DNA from: a virus
Length of the DNA: 25,305 bases
Virus record (IMG/VR): IMGVR_UViG_3300021373_001110
Coordinates: 1-25,305 of that record
Strand: one strand, 5' to 3'
The notes under the pieces were generated by a model. That model made no database searches. It was given only the letters and a program-made list of their open reading frames with translations, and was not told the origin of the DNA. Below are positions 1,849-25,305 of the stretch, piece after piece. The position numbers and the translations under genes were made by a program. Position 1 is the stretch's first letter. Every line of letters begins with the position of its first letter.

Positions 1849-2190
1849 TCAATAGGTCCAGGATTTACCTACACCATCACGAATATCAACATGCACAAAT
1901 GTTTTGGCAAGCCCTATGCCATTAAATCCCATTTCAAATGCTTTCTTCATGATTAGGTGTGCTTCGGCTGCGCTATTGATTTTAATGTCGGCAGCAATCC
2001 CCTGGGCGTGTGTCCCTGGGCGTGCTTTTCTAGACTCTATAGGGTGGGTGGGATCTCGATATCCGCTGGTGATAATAAACGGTATGCCGCACTGGTGGCG
2101 AAGCTCATCGAGCTTGTTAAGAAAGTCCCAGGACATTTTATTGTTGCCAGTATGCTGGCAGTCGAAGTCCTCTATTTTAAAGTATCTCAT
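1849..2190 (-). CDS. Endolysin: M15-family zinc peptidase
   Basis: This 113-residue protein is a Peptidase_M15_3-type enzyme that should cut peptide cross-bridges of host peptidoglycan (D-Ala-D-Ala carboxypeptidase or L-Ala-D-Glu endopeptidase type). The zinc site is complete. ITSGYRDP at 40-47 leads to THAQGIAAD at 60-68, giving ligands His61 and Asp68. FVHVDI at 98-103 gives His100 and the catalytic acidic partner Asp102. It has no signal peptide and no cell-wall-binding domain, so it needs the holin for release. The ATG at 2190 is preferred over the one at 2214: it has AAGAG 6 bases upstream, starts at the conserved family beginning (MRYFKIEDF), and lies one base after the previous stop. 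It is the last gene of the lysis cassette; a promoter follows immediately. Confidence 0.87.
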   Translation of the reverse strand: MRYFKIEDFDCQHTGNNKMSWDFLNKLDELRHQCGIPFIITSGYRDPTHPIESRKARPGTHAQGIAADIKINSAAEAHLIMKKAFEMGFNGIGLAKTFVHVDIRDGVGKSWTY

Positions 2191-2191
2191 T

Positions 2192-2674
2192 TTAGTCTCT
2201 TTGGTATGGGTCATTTAAGTAGTCAAGTCCACTCCACAGCTCCTCAACCTCACGCTGCAAAAGCTTCATGGTTTTGTCGTATCCCTCAATGTCATTTGCC
2301 AGCAGCTCGGCTTTAGCAACTGTGGCTCGCATTGCTTCAACATTTTTCTCAAGGTCAGTGATCTGTACCCTTAAAGCTAAAAGCTTTTCCTGCTTATCTA
2401 GGACTGTGCTTAGATTGACACCCAGCTCTGCAAGCTTGCTTTTTAACTGGCTTACGTCATTGTCTACAAGCTGCTGCTTTATTAATGATATCTTTTCTTC
2501 AAGTGGTTTAATGTCTGGTATTTCTACGGCTTCTACCGCCGTAAGACGACCGTATAATGAACTAGCTGTCCAAACTCCACCCCCTAAAGTGGTCGAAAGG
2601 CTCAACAAGATGGCTAGATAAACCCCCTTAAATGACCTATTCCCGATTTTTAACTCTGTCTCTTCAAGGCTCAC
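2192..2674 (-). CDS. Single-pass membrane coiled-coil protein, spanin-like candidate
   Basis: This 160-residue protein has a short charged N-terminus and one hydrophobic segment (about residues 18-40, Gly-rich at its end). The rest is a long heptad-like helical region from about 56 to 150, rich in Leu, Glu, Lys and Gln. That is the N-in, periplasm-out layout of inner-membrane spanins (Rz-type). Its place directly before the endolysin agrees with this. No outer-membrane spanin lipoprotein is visible nearby, so the assignment stays tentative; a structural or holin-modulating role is possible. The start is GTG at 2674, in a GTGA overlap with the upstream stop. No ATG occurs before residue 115, so this start is well constrained. 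It ends one base before the endolysin start. Confidence 0.55.
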   Translation of the reverse strand: MSLEETELKIGNRSFKGVYLAILLSLSTTLGGGVWTASSLYGRLTAVEAVEIPDIKPLEEKISLIKQQLVDNDVSQLKSKLAELGVNLSTVLDKQEKLLALRVQITDLEKNVEAMRATVAKAELLANDIEGYDKTMKLLQREVEELWSGLDYLNDPYQRD

Positions 2675-3492
2675 TGTGCGTACTCGCAGTTAATATTTTG
2701 TACTAGACAGTCATAACCGTACTGGGTCGGACCGTTGGTGTAAAACTCGCTTTGCTGGCCTAGTGACAAAACCTCGCTTTCACTTAGATACAAGTCCAAG
2801 CCAAAATTGCTACCGTTCACAAATACGGCTGTAGCGTTGCCGGTCATCCAGGAAACCTTCACCCACTGCTGTCCAGCATCATACGATAACGAAGCTGTCT
2901 CAAAGTTTGAGTTGTTGTTTTCCGCACCCTGCTGCAAAAACGTAGTCGCTTCTTTGTTTGCTGCGACGCCAAGATACGCTCCCGCATTGTTGCTGTGGGT
3001 CTCTATATCATCCAAAGATTGATTGTAGGTATTTACGGTTTCCTGGCTTATCTGCAGGTCGTTTGCCAATGTGTAGTCCTGGACCGCAGCTCGGTCATCC
3101 GGGGTCTGAGCCTGGTCAGCCATATCATTGACTTGAATCACTGTGCTAAGCTCCATTACAGCTCCTGTAAAGCTGTCTACGGCGTCGTGCATTTGATCCA
3201 ACTCAGAGTATGCCATGTCTTCTAAAAACGTCTGAGCGTCGCCATATGGCATGTAATTGGCCATTGAAGCCAATGCGCTATTGTATGCGTCTACTTGCTG
3301 CTGGGAAATATGCGCTGACGTAGATAGTCCGGGTGCGCCAATGTTTCCATTGTTAACTATAGCTGCGCCGACAAGCATCACGCCACGGTCAATCTGCGAT
3401 ACCAGGCTGGATGACGTATTTAATAAATCATCAATTTCGCTTGCTTGTACGGAACCGATCAGAAACGCTAATACCGCTATCTTCATTCTCAT
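2671..3492 (-). CDS. Exported protein of unknown function, lysis region
   Basis: This 273-residue protein opens with a classic Sec signal peptide: MRMK, hydrophobic IAVLAFLIGS, and a likely cut after VQA at residue 17. The mature part is mainly helical and acidic, with many Asp, Gln and Asn, from about 18 to 190. A beta-rich C-terminal part follows (WVKVSWMTGNATAVFVNG region, about 210-245). The last 12 residues hold two Cys (262, 269), a likely disulfide loop. The family is not recognised. I chose ATG at 3492 because AGGTGG lies 8 bases upstream; the longer GTG reading at 3504 lacks such a site. Its first 62 bases overlap the upstream exported protein gene in another frame. Between the holins and the endolysin, a periplasmic or envelope-acting role is likely. 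Host exclusion or a spanin substitute are possibilities only. Confidence 0.72.
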   Translation of the reverse strand: MRMKIAVLAFLIGSVQASEIDDLLNTSSSLVSQIDRGVMLVGAAIVNNGNIGAPGLSTSAHISQQQVDAYNSALASMANYMPYGDAQTFLEDMAYSELDQMHDAVDSFTGAVMELSTVIQVNDMADQAQTPDDRAAVQDYTLANDLQISQETVNTYNQSLDDIETHSNNAGAYLGVAANKEATTFLQQGAENNNSNFETASLSYDAGQQWVKVSWMTGNATAVFVNGSNFGLDLYLSESEVLSLGQQSEFYTNGPTQYGYDCLVQNINCEYAQ

Positions 3493-4051
3493 TGGGAGTG
3501 CCACCTATGTTTAGCAATTGCTTATAGTAGTCCTCTCGTTCTTGATAGTCGGGTATATATAGATCCGGGTTGGACTTCATCACCAAGTATGCACGCTTGC
3601 CAACTACAAGCTTTCCGTTGCTTAGTACCGGACACGGGGTTCCACTAACAAACATGCTTAACCAGGTAGCATTATTCTGGCATAACCTACCAATACTGGC
3701 TACCTTCATACCGACGTCGAACAGCATCTTAGCGTCACGACGTCTATTGCAGTCTTCATCTACCTTATACTTGCCGGAAGCGTAACCAAAAACCCCGGTC
3801 TGTAGAGATCCTGAAGTGCCTTTTAAGCAGGTCTCCAGGCCACTTGACAAATAGCTGCTGGATATAGCGCTAGAAACCGGGATCTCGCTAGAGGACCCGG
3901 CTCCGTTGTACGTATTGCTTACAGACTTATCTTCTGTGTTGTTGTGGCTATTGACCGTACTGTTTTCTGCGTTCGTATTCAAGCTGCCATCTTGTGTGGT
4001 CCCGGCAAATATAGATCCCGAAAGAAAACACAGAAAAAGCAGCCAGTACAT
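3431..4051 (-). CDS. Exported cysteine-containing protein of unknown function, lysis region
   Basis: This 206-residue protein starts with a signal peptide (MYWLLFLCFLSGSIFAG, likely cut near residue 16-17). A Ser/Asn/Thr-rich low-complexity linker to about residue 65 comes next, then a compact domain with four Cys (75, 101, 124, 140), enough for two disulfides. The C-terminus is charged and probably disordered. The central part (DAKMLFDVGMKVASIGRLC) looks helical. I recall similar sequences among uncultured marine phages, always without a function. I chose ATG at 4051 because it overlaps the upstream stop as TAATG and puts the signal peptide at the N-terminus; the longer reading from 4135 buries it. 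There is no lipobox, so it is not an obvious lipoprotein. It overlaps the next exported gene by 62 bases. Confidence 0.72.
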   Translation of the reverse strand: MYWLLFLCFLSGSIFAGTTQDGSLNTNAENSTVNSHNNTEDKSVSNTYNGAGSSSEIPVSSAISSSYLSSGLETCLKGTSGSLQTGVFGYASGKYKVDEDCNRRRDAKMLFDVGMKVASIGRLCQNNATWLSMFVSGTPCPVLSNGKLVVGKRAYLVMKSNPDLYIPDYQEREDYYKQLLNIGGTPNENEDSGISVSDRFRTSKRN

Positions 4052-4422
4052 TACTTCCGCAGATCCATTATCTTGCTTACGCCACGGATACCAAAGCTGC
4101 TGGATATAGCAATAAACAGCAAATACTGATACCACTCTGGCAGCTCAGATAACGCATTAAACCCTAGATGTACTCGGTCAATTATGGATGTGTCGTTTGC
4201 AATAATTGCATATCCAACCATAAACACAGGTATCGAAAGCACAATGGTCCAAAATTCATCTTTCCAGGATGTGGCAGATGCATCCGCCATCTTACTTTCC
4301 CAGTCAGCATCATTTTGTATTACAGACATTTTTGCCTGGTGCTTAGCCTGCTTTTCTTCCGCCTTGTTTTTAAAGTAGCCAGTTACTAATCCAGTTACTG
4401 GACCTATTAAGCTACTTAACAC
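4051..4422 (-). CDS. Holin-like protein (3TM-type holin family)
   Basis: This 123-residue protein resembles the small holins grouped as holin_3TM/GTA-type. An amphipathic, moderately hydrophobic N-terminus leads to a charged Lys/Gln/Ala stretch, then SWKDEFWTI followed by a membrane segment (about 57-75). LGFNALSELPEWYQ precedes a second membrane segment (about 97-112) and a basic tail. The Trp-Lys-Asp-Glu start of the first segment and the Leu-Pro-Glu-Trp-Tyr motif before the second are typical of this family as I remember it. Such proteins form lesions that let the endolysin reach the cell wall. The start is GTG at 4422, overlapping the upstream 55-residue holin-like gene by 11 bases with no clear ribosome-binding site, which suggests coupled translation. 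The exact membrane topology is inferred. Confidence 0.7.
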   Translation of the reverse strand: MLSSLIGPVTGLVTGYFKNKAEEKQAKHQAKMSVIQNDADWESKMADASATSWKDEFWTIVLSIPVFMVGYAIIANDTSIIDRVHLGFNALSELPEWYQYLLFIAISSSFGIRGVSKIMDLRK

Positions 4423-4579
4423 GGTTAGTCAGCTCGCGTACTGTTTCTGATTCCCAAATACGGATGCCAAACCAGACAATACTAAACAAACCAGCAACAG
4501 GTGGAACCCACAATGCCCAGGCAGCAACAGCTGTTGATCCAGCTGCAATGTCAATCATTTCTTTAGTTTCTTCAACCAT
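4412..4579 (-). CDS. Small membrane protein, putative holin (55 residues)
   Basis: This short gene encodes 55 residues, beginning MVEETKEMIDIAAGSTAVAA. A hydrophobic, Trp-rich stretch runs from about residue 11 to 42 with a central Pro-Pro, and the C-terminus is charged (WESETVRELTNRVK). The Pro-Pro splits the hydrophobic stretch, so it may form a hairpin of two short helices or a single long one. The ATG at 4579 has a strong GGAG site 7 bases upstream. Comparable short membrane proteins next to phage endolysins are usually called holins; I believe this type recurs in marine podoviruses. It overlaps the second holin-like gene by 11 bases. One of the two may act as the pore former and the other as a regulator (antiholin), but the sequence does not tell which. 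Confidence 0.7.
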   Translation of the reverse strand: MVEETKEMIDIAAGSTAVAAWALWVPPVAGLFSIVWFGIRIWESETVRELTNRVK

Positions 4580-21329: not shown

Positions 21330-21599
21330 CTATTTACGTTTTGACTTAGCCCCGGAACATTTCCAGCGCTTTCTTGATAAATTGTTTGGAGTGTTAGGGT
21401 CATTTTGCTTTTTCTTAGGCAGTCTTTTCTTGATGCCTAAGCTTCGGGCGCAATATGAATCACCTTTACTGGTTCCAGGCTTCACTCTTGGCCCGCCACC
21501 CTTTGCTTTGCCGGCCTGGCCGTAGCTAACCTTTTTGCCGCTTGCAGTAACTTTAACTTTTGCCTTACCTTTTGCAGGACCTTTCTTCTTAACGGGCAT
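21330..21599 (-). CDS. Lysine-rich small protein (89 residues)
   Basis: This strongly basic protein begins MPVKKKGPAKGKAKVKVTAS and continues with Gly/Lys-rich sequence. A conserved-looking core KPGTSKGDSYCARSLGIKKR (59-66 is the CARS part) precedes a Lys/Arg/Asn tail. I recall the motif KGDSYCARS..GIKKR from a recurrent small family in marine phages (possibly DUF6321); its function is not known to me. The ATG at 21599 overlaps the end of the large upstream gene by 11 bases, so translation is probably coupled. The extreme basicity suggests nucleic acid or acidic-protein binding, for example inside the head. Confidence 0.72.
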   Translation of the reverse strand: MPVKKKGPAKGKAKVKVTASGKKVSYGQAGKAKGGGPRVKPGTSKGDSYCARSLGIKKRLPKKKQNDPNTPNNLSRKRWKCSGAKSKRK

Positions 21600-24500
21600 T
21601 TGCGCTTACCTCACTAGCTTGGCTTAGTGGTGATGGCAGGGCCTGTACAGAATCACGTACAGCACTTCTACCAAAACCAAAGTCTTTAATACCATATGCA
21701 GCCAGGATAGATAAACCAGCATATCCAAGTCGCGCCAATATTTCTTTTCGCACGCCCTCTGGCATTTGGTTGTATAGCTCCGCTACCGCAGCAGCTTGGT
21801 CAGCAACAGATGCATCACCTGCGTCACCCAGAGCCGTTCCTGGGATGCTTGCGTCACCTTGCAGGGCAATACCAGCTAATCCACCGGCTCTGATTGGCGT
21901 CTCAGTAATTAAAGCCTTTCTGATTGCTGGTGTTACAAACTTGTCAAATACCTCGCCAACACCTTTCTTAAACTGCTTATACTGTGGGCCATCTTTAATA
22001 ATTTCCTCAGACTCCAGCACCCGGTCCAGTCTAGATTTGTTTTCAGCATTTCGGCTTGGGTCTATCACAGATGCAATACTGCCGGCCAAAAACTTCACAG
22101 ACTCTTCAGCCAAATCACCAATTACACCAGTGGCAATTTCTGTGAGATCGACTGCTGGCTGGAACCTGCCTACCTGGTCTAATGGAGACCTGGGCGCACG
22201 CTGTGGCGCTCTAGGCGCAACATCAGCTGGGGGTGTGTCAGCATCAGGTCTACGAAGCAGCTCAGGCGGCTCTGGGCGCACTGTACGGGCTTCCGCTTCA
22301 CCACCTGGGGCAATCATAGCAGCACCGCCTACACCAGCTGTAGCGACTGTTCCAGGATGCATAAACGCAGTAAAGCTTCCTGAGTCTCTGTCTGCCCTAA
22401 TAGCTTCACGGATCTCATCGTTGAGCCTGATGCCATGTACAGGGATTAAGCTGTCAGTGTTGGTTCCATCGCCTTGCACATAGAATGTTTCGACCTTGGC
22501 GCCGTACCGCTTAACCATCTTGTTTAGCTTGTTAACGTAGGTCTTATCATAATACTGGTACATACCCTCGCCGCCGGTCTCGCCTTTCAGCTGCCCGTCA
22601 AAGCCAGTGAAGTCATCAGCGGATCTTAGCTGACCAGTCTTTGGGTCAGTCATTATTTCAATGGCGTTATCTTTGCCAAGGAATCTAACCAGCTCTGTGT
22701 CAATTCGTGCGCCAGGATCTGTATTTCCAGATGTAATCTCATTGCCGTCTTTGTATAGTATTATCTCGTAGCTGTCGCCAGATGGCATTACGCTTACATT
22801 GTCAAAAGTTTTAAGCTGGCGCGATCTAATTGCCTGCTCACGGCCCTGGGTTAATGTTATGAAGTCAAGGTCATCAGTGTTTGCAGCGTTAATAAGGGCT
22901 TTTTTCAGGCCCAGCTCATACCAGCTGCCTTGTAGTGGAACATTTGGTGGCGCTTGTTCTAATTTTCTTATATCGCCTTCTTTGCGGCGTGCTTTTGTGT
23001 AAGCATCCTGGGTTCTTTTCTCTAAGTCCTTGAGCATCGCCTCTGCGGCTTCTTCACCTTGTTCATCCCTTACCGCAGCATACAAACCATCCTTTCTGTA
23101 TCCACCTCTAAACTCTCTAAACTCTTCATGCAGCTTTTGTGCCTCTGCCTCTAAAACAGCCAGCTCTGTCCTTGCTGCTTCTAATTTTGCATCGTTTTCT
23201 GGGCCGCGATATCCTGAATCCCTGGCAGTTTGGTGCAGGTCTGATTGTAATTCGTCAATGTGCAGACTTTCGCCCTGATATGCACCCTTATCACCGACTT
23301 TAGTGAACACTGATCGCTCATTAAGGCGCATATGCATCACAGGGTTTGGATGGTCAGGGTAATGTGCTTGATCAACGAAAGGAATATCATCACTCTCTTT
23401 GAATAGCGTGTCTAGGCGCTTTATCTCCTGGACTGCCGGGGCAACACTAGGGTCGTACTCCGGCGCAAAGTCAAGTGGAGACATTCTGGTATATTTATCG
23501 GCCTTTTTAATTGCCTGGACAACAAGGTCATCGAGCTGCTCAGGGGTTCTGCCGGACAGCTCTTCAGGGGACATAGCAAATCTTCCAAGCTCTGGGCTGC
23601 TTAGAATATTTTTCATTACATCAACTGGGTTATCGCTTTCGCTAAAGACATACCCACTGTTTCTCAAAATATCTGCATTGCTCGCCCAGTTATCCATAGA
23701 GCTTTGCACTTCTTCGGCTTCACGGATAGCAGGGAGCAATTCTTTTCTCTTCTCATTGAGTCGTAGTCTTGCGCTCGGATACTGGAAAATTATTTCCATA
23801 TCGTTTGTTCTTTCGCCAGGCAACACCAGGTCATATTCTGTGTTGGCCCATCTTGGCGCTACATTCTCTTTCATCTCTAGCTGATGGCGCTCTTTCAGCT
23901 CAGCAAATATTTTATCTGCAGCTTCTTTATCTCCCTTGGCCAGCGCATCCTTCATTGGCGCTAAAGCTTGTGGCTCTAAGATACGGAAATAGTCTAGCGC
24001 TGTAGTAGTAGGATCTACCAGCATATCTTCGTAAATCTGATAGGGGTTAGTATTGATAAAATCAATCACTTCCTGTCTGGTAACATCCTGTCGGCCAGCA
24101 AAGTGTTCCCGGATGCCCATAGCTTCCAGCTCAGACTCCTTAACGCCAAACTTGTCTAGCTCGTTCAGGAAAGAGTTAATTGGGCCTGGCTTCTGTCTTA
24201 CAATCTTTTCTGCTACCTGCTGTGGCTTGTTACCAAACCCGGTGATGGGTCCGAAACGTGCGGCTTCTGCTTCTTCAGTGCCACCAAGCGCACCAGCGCC
24301 AACTACAGCGGGAAGTCCAAACCGTACAACAGCACTGCTATAAACAGGATGTAGCTTACCTCTGACAGATATCTCGCCAACTTTTTCACCCAAGGTGACT
24401 GTAGATTTTTCTTTAGTCGGGCGTAAACGCGGCTCAGTTTTCGACTGTTCATATCTGGCAAGGTCTACTCCTTCAGGGAATACCGTTTCCAATGTGTAGT

Positions 24501-25305
24501 AATGGTTCTTGCCATCTTCCACCGATATCAGTGGGAAGTTGCCATCAGGGTTAGGGTTATAGCCGTCAGGAACCTGTGTCCAATTCCAGCCAGCTTTTTT
24601 CTTAAACAGATTTGTTTTGATTTTACGGCCCTTACCTTCAGCTGGTAGCGGGCTGTATTTTTCGCCAACCAAAAACTGTGGCTTACCGTCAGGACCAACA
24701 GATAAGATTGCGTTATCAACTGTGTCACCAGTGATATCTACAAACTGATCTCCTTCCCTGGTTAAGTACCTTCCGCCAGGGGTTGGACCAAATGGGGCAG
24801 TAAATGGCTTGTAAGATTTATCATTGGGGTCGAAGAATCTTTGCGGCGCTGGGAACACGCTTCGCATTTCTGGCTTTGGTTCGCCGAATCCACGCAACTT
24901 TACAGCGGGTGGTTTTCTATCTTCTAGCGCCTGCCTTACTCTATCTTCGTTTTCTGGAGCATAATTAAAATACCCGTCATCATACAGCTTTTGCATCAGA
25001 TCTGGATCACGATTTACCCAAAACTTTGCCCCAGCTGGGGTTAAAAACGGAGATGGCTTGATGGTCAAGCCGGTCATTTCTCCAATAGCATCATACATCT
25101 CGCCGCCGATGCCTAAGCCGCGCAATAGTGGCGCAACCTCAGTATCGTCTGACGACAAAGATTCATCAATATTTTGACGCATAGACGCCTTACCGACAAA
25201 CTTACTTCCAGGGCCGCCATCGCCCTCATACACAAAGAAGTCAGCACTTTCATTACCTGGATCTGCACTGGTAGGGTTGCGGTCAATCTTGTACCCACGC
25301 TCTGC
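21589..25305 (-). CDS. Large multidomain phage protein, N-terminus outside window
   Basis: The frame is open from the window edge to the stop at 21589, so at least 1238 residues are visible and the true start lies upstream. A GTG at 25233 is just an internal codon. Visible parts, numbered from that GTG: an extended Pro/Gly-rich region to about 300; an apolar Gly/Ala segment near 24255-24335 ending EEAEA; a helical part; and a block with HIDELQSDLHQ (about 656-666). Further on are GSWYELGLKKALINAAN (about 766-782), GGEGMYQYYDKTYVNKLNK (about 888-906) and KRYGAKVETFYV. These match a recurrent domain of large polyvalent phage proteins (IEEIQSDWHQ / WxELxLKRxLxxAA / GGEGMxxFYDK). A second apolar segment ending GGEAEA lies near 22285-22355. 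Its position before scaffold suggests a co-packaged protein. The catalytic role is unknown. Confidence 0.82.
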   Translation of the reverse strand, partial: AERGYKIDRNPTSADPGNESADFFVYEGDGGPGSKFVGKASMRQNIDESLSSDDTEVAPLLRGLGIGGEMYDAIGEMTGLTIKPSPFLTPAGAKFWVNRDPDLMQKLYDDGYFNYAPENEDRVRQALEDRKPPAVKLRGFGEPKPEMRSVFPAPQRFFDPNDKSYKPFTAPFGPTPGGRYLTREGDQFVDITGDTVDNAILSVGPDGKPQFLVGEKYSPLPAEGKGRKIKTNLFKKKAGWNWTQVPDGYNPNPDGNFPLISVEDGKNHYYTLETVFPEGVDLARYEQSKTEPRLRPTKEKSTVTLGEKVGEISVRGKLHPVYSSAVVRFGLPAVVGAGALGGTEEAEAARFGPITGFGNKPQQVAEKIVRQKPGPINSFLNELDKFGVKESELEAMGIREHFAGRQDVTRQEVIDFINTNPYQIYEDMLVDPTTTALDYFRILEPQALAPMKDALAKGDKEAADKIFAELKERHQLEMKENVAPRWANTEYDLVLPGERTNDMEIIFQYPSARLRLNEKRKELLPAIREAEEVQSSMDNWASNADILRNSGYVFSESDNPVDVMKNILSSPELGRFAMSPEELSGRTPEQLDDLVVQAIKKADKYTRMSPLDFAPEYDPSVAPAVQEIKRLDTLFKESDDIPFVDQAHYPDHPNPVMHMRLNERSVFTKVGDKGAYQGESLHIDELQSDLHQTARDSGYRGPENDAKLEAARTELAVLEAEAQKLHEEFREFRGGYRKDGLYAAVRDEQGEEAAEAMLKDLEKRTQDAYTKARRKEGDIRKLEQAPPNVPLQGSWYELGLKKALINAANTDDLDFITLTQGREQAIRSRQLKTFDNVSVMPSGDSYEIILYKDGNEITSGNTDPGARIDTELVRFLGKDNAIEIMTDPKTGQLRSADDFTGFDGQLKGETGGEGMYQYYDKTYVNKLNKMVKRYGAKVETFYVQGDGTNTDSLIPVHGIRLNDEIREAIRADRDSGSFTAFMHPGTVATAGVGGAAMIAPGGEAEARTVRPEPPELLRRPDADTPPADVAPRAPQRAPRSPLDQVGRFQPAVDLTEIATGVIGDLAEESVKFLAGSIASVIDPSRNAENKSRLDRVLESEEIIKDGPQYKQFKKGVGEVFDKFVTPAIRKALITETPIRAGGLAGIALQGDASIPGTALGDAGDASVADQAAAVAELYNQMPEGVRKEILARLGYAGLSILAAYGIKDFGFGRSAVRDSVQALPSPLSQASEVSANAR

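Follow-up and report, generated by a model that had tools for sequence, protein, structure and literature searches.

A conserved three-gene envelope module of marine phages, proposed as a spanin-like outer-membrane disruption system without an obligatory lipoprotein

The stretch of DNA analysed in this work (the window, 25,305 nucleotides, positions 1 to 25,305 of the IMG/VR virus record IMGVR_UViG_3300021373_001110) has all its major genes on the - strand and contains a head module in which scaffold and capsid families are both present. Its lysis region (Table 1) holds three consecutive genes, here called P1, P2 and P3 (together, the trio), which lie between a holin-like gene and the gene of an M15 peptidase endolysin. 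Stop and start codons overlap between the holin-like gene and P1 (TAATG) and again between P2 and P3 (GTGA, an overlap of 4 nt), so that these genes look translationally coupled. The start assigned to the endolysin (ATG at 2190) is the one kept in relatives, whose proteins begin with MRYF; a longer frame runs from 2214. In the structural region, a 1214-aa protein (21589-25233) matches an endolysin family (phrog_7348, E 4e-9).

Table 1. Features of the lysis region of the window
Feature	Position	Strand	Evidence or detail
Small membrane protein, 55 aa, possible small holin or accessory	4412..4579	-	ORF call
Holin-like membrane protein, 123 aa, GTG start	4051..4422	-	phrog_2524 E 2.3e-38, family without assigned function
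P1, exported, 206 aa, ATG: signal peptide, low-complexity linker, 4-Cys core, C-terminal tail	3431..4051	-	
P1 core, residues ~72-155	3587..3838	-	hairpin in Cys75/Cys101, then helical part with Cys124/Cys140
P1/P2 reading-frame overlap, 62 nt	3431..3492	-	
P2, exported acidic helical protein, 273 aa, ATG, C-terminal Cys pair	2671..3492	-	
P3, 160 aa, N-terminal transmembrane helix, putatively periplasmic coiled coil, C-terminus ..NDPYQRD	2192..2674	-	
M15 peptidase endolysin	1849..2190	-	PF08291 E 8.9e-10; phrog_894 endolysin E 9.5e-30

The original prediction, made from the window alone, had described P1 and P2 as two exported signal-peptide proteins encoded in different, overlapping frames, the first with a low-complexity linker and four cysteines, the second with a helical body and a C-terminal cysteine pair, and both devoid of a lipobox. 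All of this holds: the frames, positions and lengths of the two proteins are as described, as is the extent of their overlap; the linker is present and the four cysteines (75, 101, 124, 140) fall in the mature part of P1; the helical body of P2 is recovered by AlphaFold2 (mean pLDDT 85), with the cysteine pair at its C-terminus; and the only lipobox-like frames of the window lie on the strand opposite its genes. The further statement that the pair resembles no known lysis family stands insofar as no named lysis family was matched, but P1 does fall in phrog_20531 (E 9.6e-11 for the window, E 1e-10 to 3e-18 overall), a family with no assigned function that takes in P1 but neither P2 nor P3.

P1 contains an N/S/T/G-rich stretch (residues ~17-70) and one further cysteine inside the signal peptide. 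In its AlphaFold2 model residues 15-71 are disordered, an amphipathic beta-hairpin is predicted, with lower confidence, between Cys75 and Cys101, and the helical part that follows has a pLDDT above 90; in the alignment, small and hydrophobic residues alternate along the hairpin columns. The four cysteines are invariant (79/79 homologues), and an export signal is recognised in 109 of 114 P1 proteins and in every complete P2. The model of P2 is extended and helical (pTM 0.70). P1 and P2 have no significant match in the PDB, by sequence or by fold, and the window P2 has no family match and no PDB fold match with E below 0.001; its best fold match, to HlyD, was rejected (E 0.056, TM-score 0.17). 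The median net charge is +2 for P1 and -34 for P2. Window-type P2 proteins are helical and 250-300 aa long, and the Pelagibacter-type ones are exported proteins of 430-700 aa whose middle part is acidic and whose C-terminus is conserved; homology between Roseobacter-type and Pelagibacter-type P2 is unsupported (hhalign 29%).

P3, in turn, is homologous between the Roseobacter and Pelagibacter types (hhalign 96.5%, E 8e-10). It combines a single N-terminal hydrophobic helix with a coiled coil, presumably oriented towards the periplasm, and its C-terminus carries the motif NPL in 76 of the 81 complete copies (mostly one or two residues from the end), the remainder having NPYE, DPYQRD (the window) or SPLQR. 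Its Pfam and NCBIfam matches were dismissed as coiled-coil noise. Two P3 homologues, gp51 of phage CRP-810 (L014:7318-7740) and gp73 of phage CRP-207 (L013:3292-3873), are labelled 'lysozyme'/'putative lysozyme' in GenBank, apparently wrongly.

A tblastn search with P1 matched 11 phage records: the Roseobacter phages CRP-207 and CRP-810, the Pelagibacter phages HTVC115P, HTVC033P, HTVC202P, HTVC023P, Baldr and the T4-like Mosig, the T7-like S28-C10 and two environmental genomes; the trio is spread over varied marine phages with Pelagibacter and Roseobacter hosts. Two P1 profile scans of IMG/VR each returned at least 600 matches (a scan with the single P1 sequence, whose patterns were too specific, returned none). 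In total 160 loci were kept, 114 of them non-redundant, and genes were called in all; gene calling, the export test and the lipobox test relied on our own heuristics, not on SignalP or Prodigal.

Co-occurrence and order of the genes in related phages had been proposed as a check on the original prediction, and the outcome is clear: P1, P2 and P3 follow each other in that order in 77 of the 78 non-redundant loci in which at least 2.6 kb follows P1, and even the sole exception (L022) encodes an exported protein together with a transmembrane coiled-coil protein ending in NPLSK, which the clustering had missed. The expectation that P1 and P2 belong together is therefore borne out, but the unit comprises three genes, and P3, which had been named as a possible partner only, is a full member of it and its most regular element. 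In isolate records, P2 and P3 relatives are found only in genomes that also carry P1, and P1 and P3 are conserved together even where P2 is an unrelated exported protein. The P1/P2 overlap is kept (56-98 nt, same relative frame) in 38/38 window-type loci, and since both frames are kept in homologues the overlapping frames cannot be due to chance. Against a 70-72% identical relative, dN/dS is 0.12 for P2 and 0.07 for P3; for P1, dN is 0.14 and dS is saturated.

The pairwise distances of P1, P2 and P3 correlate with each other at 0.79-0.91, compared with 0.37-0.51 against the holin and 0.60-0.83 against the M15 endolysin. Relatives of the holin-like protein are found near P1 in 27/114 loci, and homologues of the 55-aa protein in 15/114 non-redundant loci; the holin position varies, being 5' of P1 in the window and 3' of P3 in other loci (L005-L010). 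These correlations, together with the mobile holin position, indicate that the trio is inherited as a block. We conclude that P1, P2 and P3 make up a genuine envelope module of three genes, conserved and apparently not described before, and recognisable by its gene set and order, its overlap, export signals, membrane anchor, invariant cysteines, C-terminal motif and co-inheritance.

The setting of this module is in most cases that of lysis. A holin or an endolysin lies within ~4 kb of the trio in 34 of 43 loci, and in the T7-like S28-C10 it is flanked by tail fibre/holin genes on one side and terminase genes on the other, which is the slot of the T7 spanins 18.5/18.7. In the complete genome of phage HTVC202P, which encodes the trio together with an M15 endolysin and a holin-like protein, a lipobox scan of both strands found no lipoprotein frame, although the scan does recover lambda Rz1 and T7 18.7; hence no canonical o- or u-spanin is encoded there. 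The coding strand of the window has no lipobox frame either. In Baldr, a 54-aa lipobox frame (37082-37246, -) was judged an unlikely lipoprotein, with a mature part of ~19 aa and a location between convergent genes.

Other loci do have lipoproteins. Small ones occur near P1 in roughly a tenth of the loci, and a lipobox is present in P1 itself in three loci (L037, L040, L094) and in P2 in several others. In seven loci (L066, L063, L064, L080, L087, L091, L053) a ~53-aa lipoprotein (MNKLFLVLALLFALSACSVGKKCTYT..) is encoded ~150-215 nt upstream of P1, and in this sub-lineage P2 often has a lipobox too. Directly upstream of P1, the three Roseobacter-type phages CRP-810, MW202675 and CRP-207 encode a lipoprotein of 70-86 aa (lipoboxes LSAC, VAAC and LAGC), the C-terminal half of which is a paralogue of the P1 core: for CRP-810 the P1-core profile gives E 2.5e-6 and 24.3 bits (none of 500 shuffles exceeding 9.8), and a search in the reverse direction, with a profile of the lipoprotein, recovers P1 proteins. 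The CRP-207 gene is unannotated (70 aa, lipobox LLAGC, L013 ~1731-1940, + strand, overlapping the P1 start).

The P1 core is also found in cells, in two uncultured Alphaproteobacteria. Two adjacent chromosomal genes (L194:3838-6738 and L195:17-2908) encode proteins that combine collagen repeats with the P1 core; one of them also has an OmpA domain, in the arrangement signal peptide, collagen repeats, P1 core and OmpA wall-binding domain. A profile check refuted the idea that these are mere repeat matches, the 4-Cys core scoring E about 1e-25 and the OmpA domain (PF00691) E 6e-24. We regard them as a rare cell-surface protein family: a cell copy of the core was found in one of 289 Alphaproteobacteria genomes and no further one, and a search of 84,980 species genomes found, at the sensitivity used, no P1 beyond this pair and L193. 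The latter (JABBCA010000011.1) is a phage contig with the lysis region of the window and a P1 81% identical, placed in an Opitutales MAG and probably misbinned. No P2 or P3 adjoins the cell proteins, and phage P1 has no OmpA-like peptidoglycan-binding domain (PF00691); the presence of this domain in a cell homologue sharing the P1 core probably explains the label 'OmpA family protein' of CRP-810 gp53. The lipoprotein paralogue, the lipoboxes and the OmpA-family fusion together suggest an outer-membrane site for P1. In the Achromobacter phage phiAxp-2, a P1-core protein stands beside an exported low-complexity protein in a non-lysis region (L192:44598-45155, 45216-45710), and no P3 was detected with it. 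Independent occurrence in unrelated contexts, which the original prediction had counted against itself, thus applies to the P1 core (Achromobacter phages, rare OmpA-family cell proteins) and not to the P1-P2-P3 set.

The best explanation for these observations, to which we give about even chances, is that the trio would act in the manner of a spanin, disrupting the outer membrane without necessarily requiring a lipoprotein; in this respect the reading first suggested from the window, a new outer-membrane disruption system, is retained, although the exclusion and inhibition roles offered beside it are inseparable from disruption by sequence. We infer that P1, P2 and P3, produced late in infection, would assemble into a single envelope complex that spans the periplasm. 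The inner membrane would anchor P3, whose coiled coil would reach into the periplasm and whose C-terminal NPL tail would serve for docking; P1 and P2 would leave by Sec, the disulfide-stabilised core placing P1 at or in the outer membrane, and P2 would link P1 to P3. After holin firing and wall cutting by the endolysin, the complex would pull the membranes together or destabilise the outer membrane, which would complete lysis, and the trio would thereby take over the job of Rz/Rz1-type spanins. A bolder version, in which the trio is a categorically new class of machine (P1 assembled in the outer membrane by disulfide-closed amphipathic beta-hairpins, P2 bridging the periplasm and P3 engaging both by its NPL tail, with lipoprotein-free rupture or fusion upon wall loss), appears to us possible but doubtful; if true, many of the most abundant ocean phages would end lysis in this way.

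Several observations keep our confidence in the disruption role from rising above even. The related phages HTVC027P, HTVC200P and HTVC019P do not have the trio, which is consequently not indispensable for lysing SAR11, and the endolysin gene is distant from the trio in HTVC202P and Baldr; the nearby lipoproteins, the phiAxp-2 context and the lack of a significant PDB fold match for P1 and P2 weigh in the same direction. So does a pair consisting of a transmembrane coiled-coil protein and a small exported protein, which coexists with the trio in 11 of the 43 loci and might be the real spanin equivalent. HTVC019P (L188:5604-6178) and HTVC200P (L187:4712-5286) carry such a second SAR11-phage pair, with a coiled-coil protein ending in ..RANGNGTH (phrog_20984) and a ~70-aa exported two-Cys protein ending in ..KLILE (phrog_24646) and devoid of a lipobox; it may be a further lysis or envelope pair that has gone unrecognised.

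Superinfection exclusion or receptor masking, with P1/P2 at the outer membrane or surface, held there by P3 and blocking adsorption or DNA entry, would agree with the export of P1 and the link of its core domain to the outer membrane, with the presence of unrelated P2 proteins in the Roseobacter and Pelagibacter types (as for host-specific targets) and with the existence of related phages without the trio; additionally, the ~53-aa upstream lipoprotein has a weak match to the Cor exclusion protein (phrog_1119, E 0.01, in the signal-peptide part only). We nevertheless consider it unlikely, given that most loci place the trio with late lysis or packaging genes and not with early ones, that receptor blocking needs no obligatory inner-membrane coiled coil, and that P1 and P2 have no match to PADLOC defence models (P3 giving coiled-coil noise only). 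The small lipoproteins near P1, in those loci and in CRP-207, CRP-810 and MW202675, raise another reading, in which P3 and a small lipoprotein or other small exported partner make an ordinary spanin pair and P1/P2 have some other envelope role (adhesion, aggregation or nutrient uptake), and the P2 of one Pelagibacter-type phage indeed has a weak carbohydrate-binding match (PF02018, E 0.009). Most loci, however, have no lipoprotein in the flanks examined, the HTVC202P genome has none at all, and no isolate record shows P3 without P1 and P2, which leaves this reading with a low probability; where a small lipoprotein is nearby, P1/P2 might be accessories of ordinary spanins.

The adjacency of the trio to holin and endolysin in many loci could also mean that it regulates lysis timing, acting on either of them in an antiholin-like manner or protecting the envelope until late. 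Disulfide-bonded periplasmic proteins can sense the environment, as established for T4 RI. Nevertheless, the trio co-varies poorly with the holin (the correlations given above), the holin changes place relative to it, HTVC202P encodes holin and endolysin elsewhere, and three large proteins would be a costly regulator, all of which makes this role improbable. It is far less probable still that the proteins are associated with the virion or that their genes are neighbours by accident: the canonical Sec signals and the invariant cysteines of disulfide type misfit cytoplasmic assembly, and accidental proximity is excluded by the near-universal co-occurrence described above.

Among known systems, the disruption complex proposed here comes closest to Rz/Rz1 of lambda and 18.5/18.7 of T7, with which it shares the i-spanin topology (P3, predicted type II with a periplasmic coiled coil), overlapping genes and a lysis neighbourhood, in one T7-like phage even the same genomic slot. 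The difference lies in the partner, which is one small lipoprotein in Rz/Rz1-type systems and two exported proteins, mostly without a lipobox, in the trio. A nearby lipobox lipoprotein, the mark of an o-spanin, was looked for; it is absent from the coding strand of the window and from the HTVC202P genome and present only in some relatives, and for this reason we file the trio under no known lysis family. P1, P2 and P3 of the window match no spanin family, and the match of one relative's P3 to phrog_739 (E 0.09) is at noise level. Unimolecular spanins (T1 gp11; roseophage SIO1/cobavirus, PMC6775973) unite a lipobox and a C-terminal transmembrane domain in one protein; no window protein has both, and P1 and P2 have neither. 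Some Roseobacter phages, on related hosts, do employ an outer-membrane disruptor (PMC6775973). The disruptin of phiKT (cited in PMC12819732) disrupts the outer membrane without a lipoprotein, as proposed for the trio, but disruptins are short cationic amphipathic antimicrobial peptides, while P1 (206 aa) is near neutral and P2 (273 aa) strongly acidic. The collagen-repeat/OmpA-family cell proteins share the 4-Cys core with P1, but are chromosomal and fused to collagen repeats and an OmpA domain. In pelagiphages, the outer-membrane proteins of a CsgG/CsgF curli pore have been proposed for lysis or secretion (PMC9599517, PMC9004378); a curli identity was rejected for P1 and P2, neither of which has a Csg-type match.

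No recognisable spanin is found in about 13% of the Gram-negative phages surveyed, which poses the question of how such phages breach the outer membrane (PMC6139136, PMC12819732); Kongari et al. noted that spanin-less phages exist and that an outer-membrane protein might serve as o-spanin (PMC6139136). The pelagiphage literature that we consulted for the trio names no established outer-membrane disruptor. The trio is a concrete candidate for this function in very abundant marine phages, and the P1 core, together with a transmembrane coiled-coil protein ending in NPL, provides an annotation signature for genes now labelled 'hypothetical', 'lysozyme' or 'OmpA family'.
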